Of a DNA stretch of 64,000 nucleotides, positions 10,604 to 21,387 are shown piece by piece (position 1 is the first letter of the stretch; each line of letters starts with the position of its first letter). Made by a program: the position numbers and the translations under genes. The notes beneath the pieces were generated by a model, which was not told where the DNA came from, did not search any database, and saw nothing but the letters and a program-made list of their open reading frames with translations. This DNA comes from a virus: the IMG/VR virus record IMGVR_UViG_3300044681_000098, positions 1 to 64,000 of that record. One strand, given 5' to 3'.

Positions 10604-10892
10604 CCATGACTTACTACGACCTACCTTTCAATGGATAAAAGATGATTACACTTCTAATCGCTATCGTTTTATTGTGGAACTGTTGGCTTGGTTTGTTAGT
10701 ATTGGATGTTCGATTACAATGGCTTTCACAGTACCCAACCCTCCGCTACTTGTACTATACCCTATTTGGATCAGTGGTTGTGCTATGTATGCTTGGGCTG
10801 CTTATACTAGGAAATCATTTGGCATGCTTGCTAATTACATCCTGCTAACTGCTATTGATACACTGGGATTGTTTAGAATGCTATGGTTCTAA
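10596..10892 (+). CDS. Multi-span membrane protein, 98 aa
   Basis: Three hydrophobic helices are visible at about residues 25-46, 49-68 and 74-95, joined by short loops. The N-terminal 22 residues are charged and probably cytoplasmic. The size and topology could suit a transporter-like or holin-like protein, but no family motif was recognised. It overlaps the following micro-membrane gene. Confidence 0.7.
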   Translation: MLDHDLLRPTFQWIKDDYTSNRYRFIVELLAWFVSIGCSITMAFTVPNPPLLVLYPIWISGCAMYAWAAYTRKSFGMLANYILLTAIDTLGLFRMLWF

Positions 10893-11014
10893 TACTACTG
10901 GAAATACTTGGATACTGGATTGCTATGGCAGGGTTCATGGCAATGCTTATGATATCGGCTCTCGCCTTTGCCAAGGTGTGTGAACTGATATTGGACATCG
11001 TCCTAAATAAATAG
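10883..11014 (+). CDS. Small membrane protein, 43 aa
   Basis: ATG 10883 overlaps the end of the three-span gene and the frame runs to TAG 11012. Nearly the whole product is hydrophobic, including a Met-rich run AMAGFMAMLMISALAFA, with a single Cys near the end. It is probably one membrane helix. Confidence 0.55.
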   Translation: MVLILLEILGYWIAMAGFMAMLMISALAFAKVCELILDIVLNK

Positions 11015-11045
11015 TATTTCCCCCTTTCTCACTTTGGAGTTAACA

Positions 11046-19964: not shown

Positions 19965-20091
19965 CATACCAGCAAAGATGACGTTACACTTACCCAATGA
20001 AAAAGAATGCATGCAGGCTGCAAAATCTCTTGAGTACGATTTGAAGTTTAAGCAGTTTAAGTTGGAGGCGACATGCTCTCAGAAAAGATAA
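19918..20091 (+). CDS. Small protein with hydrophobic N-terminus, 57 aa
   Basis: CAGGAG precedes ATG 19918 inside the phosphatase gene and the frame stops at TAA 20089-20091. The first 9 residues are hydrophobic (MWILLIIAV), possibly a signal or membrane anchor. The rest is polar with two cysteines. It overlaps the glycosyltransferase start by 19 nt. The function is unknown. Confidence 0.5.
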   Translation: MWILLIIAVHINDPNDIPAKMTLHLPNEKECMQAAKSLEYDLKFKQFKLEATCSQKR

Positions 20092-20783
20092 CCATAGTAG
20101 TTCCCTGCAAGAATGAAGAAAACTATATCCATCATTTGCTGTATAGTCTACGCAAGCAGGACATTGGTCAGACACGCATCATCATAGCAGATGCCAGCAC
20201 AGACAATACTAGAGCAGTGATCGAAGCCAACAAAGGCACACTAAACGTAGAAGTGATAGAAGGTGGACCTGTCAGTATTGCTAAGAATAATGGTGCTAGA
20301 TTAGCAACTACACCTTACATTCTATTCATTGACAGCGATGTGCGTTTCTTCAAAGACACAGTGATACATGATTGTGTTCGCATACTGGAAGAAAAGCAAT
20401 TAGACCTAATAGGATTGTACATCAAGTGTTATGACAATGACTTTGTAGCCAAGATAGGTTTTACTCTGTTCAATGCTATCAACGCTGTTATGCAATACTT
20501 CATTCCTTTCGCTGTAGGTGCATTCTTTCTAACACGCAGAGATAAGTTTGAAGAACTAGGTGGCTTCCCTGCTCGCTACGAAACATCGGAAGACTTTTTC
20601 CTAAGCAAGATGTATGATGTCAAGAACTTTACGCTTGTACATCACTATTTTGGGCAGGACAGCAGAAGATTCAAGAAGATGGGCTACTTTGGTATGGCTT
20701 GGTATCTTATTAAAAACTTTTGGAATCGTAACAACCAAAAATATTGGGATAGCATAGACTATTCCAAATATTGGGATAAATAA
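20073..20783 (+). CDS. Family 2 glycosyltransferase
   Basis: This 236-residue protein begins with the GT2 block TIVVPCKNEEN (residues 7-17) and carries ADASTDNT and the metal-binding FIDSDV near residue 90. A later ETSEDFFLSK contains the acidic catalytic-type ED. GT2 enzymes add sugars from nucleotide donors to lipids, proteins or glycans. Two hydrophobic stretches near residues 130-150 could associate with membrane. Next to an LpxH-like enzyme, it may modify host surface glycolipid. The gene ends at TAA 20781, just before the tmRNA. Confidence 0.85.
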   Translation: MLSEKITIVVPCKNEENYIHHLLYSLRKQDIGQTRIIIADASTDNTRAVIEANKGTLNVEVIEGGPVSIAKNNGARLATTPYILFIDSDVRFFKDTVIHDCVRILEEKQLDLIGLYIKCYDNDFVAKIGFTLFNAINAVMQYFIPFAVGAFFLTRRDKFEELGGFPARYETSEDFFLSKMYDVKNFTLVHHYFGQDSRRFKKMGYFGMAWYLIKNFWNRNNQKYWDSIDYSKYWDK

Positions 20784-20790
20784 AAGAATT

Positions 20791-21107
20791 GTTGTAATCC
20801 CTTCAAAGCGAAGGACTTCTGGACGAGGGTTCGATTCCCTCCATCTCCACCAAAAGCATTCTATCCCCACCTGACGAGGAAGGATCGAAAGAACTAAAAA
20901 GAATGCTTCTGATGGGGATGATCTGGTTTCGACAGGGGTAGATAGCAGAGACGGCAACACGGTAGGCGATGACCGAAACAAGATTCCATAAGGAATAACT
21001 TGGATGACAAAGCAAATCAAAGTAAACGCAAACGAAGAAGTTTACGCTCTTGCTGCCTAAAGCAAGATGAGGTTTCGGCAGGTGTCCTTATAATCAAATC
21101 ACCTGCC
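20791..21107 (+). ncRNA. ssrA: Circularly permuted (two-piece) tmRNA
   Basis: tmRNA rescues stalled ribosomes by acting as alanyl-tRNA and a short mRNA. Here the 3' acceptor half comes first: a hairpin CCTTC/GAAGG, CTTCTGGACGAGGGTTCGATT and CATCTCC-A-CCA (20842-20852). A 61-nt intervening hairpin follows, then the 5' half GGGGATGATCTGGTTTCGACA (20914 on). GGGGATG pairs with CATCTCC (one G-T). The tag frame at 21028-21060 encodes ANEEVYALAA and stop, framed by GTAAAC/GTTTAC. The 5' boundary of the acceptor piece is uncertain (20784-20800). The 3' hairpin GGCAGGTG/CACCTGCC (21077-21107) may be structural or a terminator. Confidence 0.9.
20853..20913 (+). other. tmRNA intervening segment (processed hairpin)
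   Basis: Between the encoded CCA of the acceptor half and the first G of the tag half lie 61 nt. They contain a perfect 9-bp inverted repeat AAGCATTCT (20854-20862) and AGAATGCTT (20900-20908), with an inner ATCC/GGAT and CCT/AGG pairing. This would hold the two termini together in the precursor until processing. Confidence 0.75.
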
Positions 21108-21129
21108 ACTTATTCTTTTAGGGGGATTT

Positions 21130-21387
21130 ATGCAAAAAGTATTAGTAGGTATTCTCGCAGCACTATTATCATTATCAGTGTTTGCTGCTGAGCCAGTAAA
21201 GAAAAAAGAGCCAGCAAAGAAACAAGCTACAACGCAAAAGGCACCAGCTAAAAAAGCTGATGCCCCTAAACATGCTGACGCAGAAACTCAAAAATCAGTA
21301 ATGGCTAAAGCAAAAGAAAAGATGGCTGAAAAGAAAAAGAAACAAGAGGAAGCTGCTGCTAAGAAGAAGCAGCAACCTAAGAAATAA
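21130..21387 (+). CDS. Lys/Ala-rich exported protein, 85 aa
   Basis: ATG 21130 follows AGGGGG. A signal peptide (hydrophobic residues 4-17, likely cleavage after AFA at about residue 19) precedes a very basic Lys-, Ala- and Pro-rich region with KKxEPAKK repeats. It resembles histone H1-like tails and could coat DNA or membrane, but the signal suggests periplasmic export. The stop abuts the stop of a minus-strand gene with no spacer. Confidence 0.68.
   Translation: MQKVLVGILAALLSLSVFAAEPVKKKEPAKKQATTQKAPAKKADAPKHADAETQKSVMAKAKEKMAEKKKKQEEAAAKKKQQPKK

Follow-up and report, generated by a model that had tools for sequence, protein, structure and literature searches.

A beta-type permuted tmRNA gene with a helix-closed intervening sequence on a T4-like phage fragment

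Results

The carrier phage and its gene neighborhood

The window analyzed here comprises the first 64,000 nt of a 73.7-kb linear virus record (IMG/VR IMGVR_UViG_3300044681_000098). Its carrier is a fragment of a T4-like myovirus from water, with T4-like genes of the tail, baseplate, tail tube, single-strand-binding (SSB), and helicase-loader families, and the proposal of the initial annotation that its tmRNA gene is phage-borne is supported. The closest named relatives of a tail protein are found in Synechococcus phages, Melnitz, and Pelagibacter phages at ~25% identity, and a search of IMG/VR with a tail protein returned no relatives. Immediately upstream of the acceptor piece, which starts at 20790, a family 2 glycosyltransferase gene ends (20073-20783, + strand), so that the tmRNA may be co-transcribed with it. 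Just 3' of the tmRNA, the product of a gene at 21130-21387 (+) is a small protein rich in lysine and alanine that starts like a signal peptide and has no PHROG match. Two results count against the reading that we prefer below: no sigma-70 promoter above chance was found upstream of the tmRNA, and SmpB was not detected in the 73.7-kb record, whereby the tmRNA would depend on the host for this partner.

A complete permuted tmRNA gene of beta type

We identified a complete circularly permuted tmRNA gene of beta type in the window (Table 1). The Rfam beta_tmRNA model (RF01850) matches over its full length (positions 1-331; 139.8 bits, E 1.3e-42), as does tmRNA_permuted (RF04321; positions 1-213 at window 20790-21060; 139.1 bits). 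Conversely, alpha_tmRNA reaches only 42.4 bits, under its cut-off. The beta score exceeds both its own cut-off and the alpha score, and none of the standard (unpermuted) models wins at the locus. ARAGORN likewise predicts a permuted tmRNA (tmRNA*) with the tag ANEEVYALAA*, and the fold of a 328-nt region beats 100 of 100 shuffles (z -4.0). The initial annotation had proposed that the acceptor half precedes the tag half and that GGGGATG pairs with CATCTCC across them. The sequence bears out this pairing, and the ARAGORN and Rfam matches, the top one being to a permuted (beta) model, span both halves in the order acceptor half, intervening sequence (IVS), D-domain/tag half. In addition to this gene order, the sequence holds a G3.U70 wobble, a T arm, an encoded CCA, and a tag frame with an ALAA end and a stop. 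A G3 facing U70 is what alanyl-tRNA synthetase requires.

Table 1. Coordinates of the permuted tmRNA gene and its parts in the window
Feature	Position	Strand	Basis
Whole permuted tmRNA gene (Rfam beta_tmRNA span)	20748-21130	+	RF01850; ARAGORN 20760-21151
Acceptor piece (3' half of tRNA-like domain), first in gene, encoded CCA at end	20790-20852	+	RF04321 alignment; sequence
Island of 121 bp shared at 99.2% identity with phage contig L059, unrelated elsewhere; covers T arm, acceptor, IVS, and D-loop start	20817-20937	+	
T arm GAGGG-TTCGATT-CCCTC	20825-20841	+	Rfam alignment
Acceptor stem 3' strand CATCTCC, pairs with 20914-20920, G3.U70	20842-20848	+	Sequence, Rfam, covariation
A73	20849	+	Sequence
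Encoded CCA	20850-20852	+	Sequence
61-nt IVS, predicted to be excised from the precursor	20853-20913	+	94-98% identical in L041, L059, L083
IVS terminal helix, 5' arm AAGCATTCT	20854-20862	+	95.6% paired over 95 IVS families vs 68% for swapped partners
IVS core type T1: predicted hairpin ATCC/GGAT, CCT/AGG, and single strand	20863-20899	+	
IVS terminal helix, 3' arm AGAATGCTT	20900-20908	+	Fold prediction, pairing statistics
TGAT just 5' of mature 5' end; can pair with ACCA in precursor	20910-20913	+	126/149 phage IVSs of >=40 nt
Acceptor stem 5' strand GGGGATG, start of mRNA-like piece	20914-20920	+	Sequence, Rfam
Tag reading frame ANEEVYALAA, TAA stop	21028-21060	+	Sequence, ARAGORN
3'-terminal stem GGCAGGTG/CACCTGCC, beta-type pseudoknot region	21077-21107	+	Fold prediction, Rfam alignment

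A lack of conserved acceptor pairing in relatives was named beforehand as grounds for rejecting the gene, and this pairing is kept. Because our search patterns dictate some letters of the mature motif, conservation of those letters is no evidence. Within 183 unique phage genes, pair 5:68 occurs as A-U (89), G-C (56), and C-G (33), while the search pattern constrained pairs 1-4, 6, and 7 of this set in part, so that they carry no independent weight. Moreover, pairs 4:69, 5:68, and 6:67 covary in 27 genes that were fetched by spacer sequence, independently of any tmRNA pattern. Covariation in both gene sets indicates that the two halves pair across the spacer.

A covarying helix closes the spacer

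The spacer, which the initial annotation passed over, is the unusual part of the gene. A covarying helix of ~10 bp closes the IVS in 95 phage IVS families and stacks on the acceptor stem. With one sequence taken from each family, positions 2-10 of the IVS are complementary in 95.6% of cases to their mirror positions, which lie five bases in from the end. Sliding the register lowers this value to 35-61% and swapping partners to 68%, and each pair is formed by several base combinations across families. TGAT forms the last four bases of most spacers of at least 40 nt (Table 1) and can pair with ACCA, so that acceptor stem, CCA, and spacer arms are predicted to form one precursor helix of ~21 bp. 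The Marzo and SM1 phage sequences likewise have a closed IVS ending in TGAT. The same closing helix occurs in a few alphaproteobacterial spacers and is thus not confined to phages.

Alphaproteobacterial IVSs measure 5-35 nt in 56 genomes and 36-66 nt in 44, and the simple claim that long IVSs occur only in phages is rejected, as the latter class makes up 44 of 142 genomes. The gene order of the window recurs in at least 265 IMG/VR contigs found with one strict pattern, of which 54 have spacers of 10-39 nt, 91 of 40-70 nt, and at least 120 of 71-101 nt. Spacers over ~66-70 nt are found in at least 120 of 265 phage genes versus 3 of 103 alpha genes (P ~1e-17, with kinship ignored and slightly different anchors on the two sides). 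Only IVS lengths over ~67 nt are phage-biased.

Spacer cores fall into many unrelated families

The cores within the closing helices belong to many unrelated families, 33 of which have two or more members in our sample. Most families are singletons in this sample (loci L153-L272) and the count of contigs at 71-101 nt is a lower bound, so that the total core diversity lies far beyond what has been sampled. Stable folding is not a shared property: the inner cores fold no better than shuffles (mean z -0.23 over 95 cores; -0.38 for the window), which leads us to reject them as stable RNA structures and also counts against our preferred reading. No Rfam ribozyme matched the IVS, and a hammerhead in the window core was rejected since its CUGANGA ... 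GAAA core is not kept in relatives (AAAA in L059, GAAT in L041). The window IVS was also rejected as a coding stretch, as it has no ATG, GTG, or TTG and L041 carries a 1-nt insertion.

Some spacers of other phages hold candidate cargo. At L239 (tmRNA 10644-11037), ARAGORN predicts a tRNA-Phe with anticodon AAA inside the IVS, its acceptor stem merging with the closing helix, and L202 has a tRNA-like IVS without an ARAGORN call. Three groups of loci (L198, L245, and L250; L211 and L226; L155, L164, and L264) have small IVS frames that would encode hydrophobic peptides (e.g. MKPYEIIVITLLTILIIVHVLF); purine-rich sequence precedes the start, and most frames stop at the TGA of TGAT. Alike peptides arise from differing DNA, which suggests coding in these IVS families. 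One such peptide had no match among public phages. As a general rule, IVS micro-ORFs are rejected, with 16 seen versus 12 expected from shuffled cores, not above chance.

Two core families that vary less than their genes

The window core belongs to a family (T1) with four known carriers. The window IVS is 98% identical to that of L059, 97% to L083, and 94% to L041, although families chosen by core likeness give identities that are biased upward and single metagenomic contigs may carry assembly errors. The mRNA-like halves of these three carriers are 63, 59, and 58% identical to that of the window gene, and random phage tmRNA pairs are 64% identical. With L059 the window shares the 121-bp island of Table 1, which ends in conserved tmRNA blocks; beyond it, the two loci have nothing else in common except one 39-bp match. 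Loci L083 and L041 are syntenic relatives of the window (SSB 55 and 60% identical, respectively); within this syntenic group, T1 identity is 94-97%, as against ~66-73% at the DNA level for the genes that align. Substitutions in T1 are at unpaired positions or preserve pairs. L079, the nearest relative of the window by SSB (67%) and with the same gene order, has an unrelated IVS. A body-tree clade of the four carriers was not rejected by the AU test (p 0.38) on a weakly supported tree, so that the case for exchange over constraint is tentative for the window itself. Although a single metagenome is the source of both L059 and L083, sequence differences among the T1 copies show that they do not represent one collapsed contig. 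A further candidate carrier, L372, was rejected as a chance match to a T1 17-mer in a stretch without a tmRNA.

A second family, T2, allowed cleaner tests of conservation, through a tmRNA-blind search and positions left free in it. Searched for by core alone in IMG/VR, T2 occurs in 40 stretches (38 complete, one cut just downstream, and the last starting inside the IVS), and in 39 of the 39 long enough to read it lies between TCCACCA and TGATGGG. The search left free 18 listed positions within or beside the core. Constancy is 85% or higher at 16 of them and 97% or higher at 15, the other three comprising two core positions with a pair of common states each and the outermost position, at which 34 of 40 stretches agree. 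Among the 27 distinct genes, the core is 97.5% alike, versus 81% for T arm and acceptor and 67% for the body. Many metagenomes contributed T2 carriers, and the tmRNA halves of these diverge widely. Neither a T1 nor a T2 IVS was found in the phage isolate collection, nor a T1 IVS in plasmids.

Permuted tmRNAs in other phages and in bacteria

Permuted tmRNA in a phage is a known kind of gene. A two-piece ssrA has been described in Methylophilales phage Melnitz, along with a survey listing 53 two-piece candidates in public phages, 50 of them marine or aquatic (PMC9004378), and the novelty of the present gene is accordingly lower than first supposed. We found permuted beta-type genes among isolates in Stenotrophomonas phages Marzo and YB07, Pseudomonas phage SM1, and Xanthomonas phage XacN1. 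Their hosts, the gammaproteobacteria Stenotrophomonas, Pseudomonas, and Xanthomonas, have a one-piece tmRNA of their own. Permuted tmRNAs are thus common in aquatic phages, and beta-type copies occur also in phages whose hosts are thought to have the one-piece form.

It had also been suggested that the gene was captured from a two-piece-tmRNA host of the phage itself, and here the comparisons point elsewhere. The closest mature half is that of another phage (L197, local score 129), with scores of at most 47 for the eight bacterial permuted-type loci compared. By Rfam search, the permuted beta type is present in only 2 of 41 sampled Burkholderiales genomes, and a search of 84,980 species genomes of bacteria and archaea found no gene for the tag ANEEVYALAA with a TAA stop. 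These comparisons do not support capture straight from a beta host; the gammaproteobacterial hosts of the isolates, the scarcity in Burkholderiales, and the proximity of the mature half to other phages are better explained by a phage-borne lineage than by capture from the present host. The Rfam searches replaced a control based on the encoded-CCA pattern, which matched in 1 of 200 Burkholderiales, apparently because the beta consensus reads CCACCc. This sole match (L281, bacterial genome G159) has a phage-like IVS (TAAGTGCA...TGTGCTTATGAT), and G159 may contain a prophage or a misbinned phage contig.

Discussion

A proposed route from precursor to two-piece tmRNA

The gene looks functional, and we consider it very likely that it is a beta-type gene whose product is cleaved into a two-piece tmRNA dependent on host SmpB, with an IVS core that is a module passing between, or held in, phage tmRNAs. 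When expressed, the gene would yield a single precursor in which the acceptor half is followed by the IVS and this by the D-domain/tag half. A helix of ~21 bp would join the acceptor strand, CCA, and IVS 5' arm on one side to the IVS 3' arm, UGAU, and the 5' strand of the acceptor stem on the other. Host nucleases may then cut this helix, the putative enzymes being an RNase III-like activity within the helix, RNase P at G1, and an exonuclease trimming to CCA. By analogy with 23S rRNA IVSs, the spacer would be lost after cleavage, and the two pieces would stay paired as the mature tmRNA, with alanine charging through G3.U70. During infection, the molecule would act with host SmpB to free stalled ribosomes, appending the tag ANEEVYALAA, the probable benefit being that ribosomes keep cycling while host mRNA is destroyed. 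The window core, in turn, would represent one of many families of a small spacer module that may be passed between phage tmRNA genes or held unchanged.

More generally, we propose, with confidence evenly divided, that permuted tmRNA genes of phages are home to small mobile or independently selected RNA modules, with helix-closed cores of ~25-75 nt in many families that spread and are more constant than the tmRNA around them. Such spacer families appear to be undescribed in the literature searched. A discarded spacer would be expected to drift faster than a working RNA; in these genes, however, the spacer is the part that changes least. This implies either that the spacer RNA acts in infection or that it is a very small selfish element, rendered harmless through tmRNA maturation as rRNA IVSs are.

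Exchange, selection, or an ordinary by-product

One account of the cores, plausible and only just short of an even prospect in our estimation, is that of a selfish or passive cassette exchanged by recombination or intron-like homing between the tmRNAs of co-infecting phages, any insert that keeps the helix being tolerated. The island shared with L059 and bounded by conserved tmRNA blocks favors this account, as does the existence of many unrelated cores, among which L239 has a tRNA. The 60 switches of IVS type on the body tree (minimum 32, shuffles 74) likewise count in its favor, although this tree is weakly supported. An HNH endonuclease gene adjoins the tRNA/tmRNA array of phage Marzo; however, a Pfam scan of ten genes near the window tmRNA found no homing endonuclease, the sole nuclease domain being PD-(D/E)XK. 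Moreover, the likeness among T2 genes stops at the IVS borders; with differing mature stems on either side, recombination would have very little homology to act on.

That same border favors selection, in which the released spacer RNA or the precursor has a job of its own (e.g. protein binding or as a regulatory RNA) and the gene is inherited down phage lines. In T2, a nearly constant core is flanked on either side by compensated changes in T arm and acceptor, and T1 is better kept than the genes of its syntenic relatives, with its changes confined to unpaired or pair-keeping sites. Conversely, the nearest genome relative of the window (L079) has an unrelated IVS despite its shared gene order, L059 has the 121-bp core region with no other gene found in common, and the cores are not unusually stable. 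We therefore regard this account as tentative and somewhat doubtful.

It is improbable that the IVS is an ordinary spacer, a by-product of the permuted gene whose likeness among carriers stems from recent descent or assembly artefacts. The frequent similarity in length of alphaproteobacterial IVSs, some with the same closing helix, and the common metagenome of L059 and L083 would fit such an origin, whereas the many metagenomes and widely different tmRNA halves of T2, the differences among T1 copies, and the excess of the longest spacers in phages (kinship ignored) argue against it. A decayed or inhibitory tmRNA copy, for which the tagless form of phage DS6A that inhibits host tmRNA offers a precedent (PMC11915505), is very improbable, since tag, G3.U70, CCA, and T arm show no decay and acceptor covariation is retained.

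Comparison with known systems

The window gene shares with the beta-type permuted tmRNA (RF01850/RF04321) its gene order, T arm, G3.U70 acceptor stem, D-domain motif GGTTTCGACAGGG, tag frame, and 3' stem-loop. It differs in encoding CCA, where the beta consensus has CCACCc, in its 61-nt IVS, in its location in a phage genome, and in a tag present in no sampled bacterium. Like the Melnitz ssrA (PMC9004378), it is a permuted tmRNA on a T4-like aquatic phage, although the Melnitz gene is alphaproteobacteria-like and linked to a glutamine riboswitch, while the window gene is of beta type (alpha model 42 bits). The tmRNAs of Marzo, YB07, SM1, and XacN1 are likewise permuted beta-type matches, with other IVS cores and tags. 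A tRNA-Ala inside the IVS of a permuted tmRNA was called unique in a 2025 tmRNA database paper (PMC11915505); that case resembles ours in carrying cargo within the IVS, whereas here the cargo comprises a tRNA-Phe in L239 along with many non-tRNA core families.

The nearest parallel for the spacer itself lies in the IVSs of bacterial 23S rRNA (e.g. Coxiella, Salmonella, and Leptospira), where excision by RNase III leaves a fragmented RNA and horizontal movement is suspected (PMC4990558). In both systems, complementary ends form a stem around a variable interior. The rRNA IVSs are excised without religation to give a two-piece RNA, and the same would hold for the phage tmRNA IVS, for which excision by RNase III is a prediction. 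Unlike their rRNA counterparts, the phage spacers reside in tmRNA and measure ~40-100 nt. We claim no sequence homology between the two, and their location in tmRNA rather than 23S rRNA makes the phage spacers an analog, not a member, of the 23S rRNA-type IVS.
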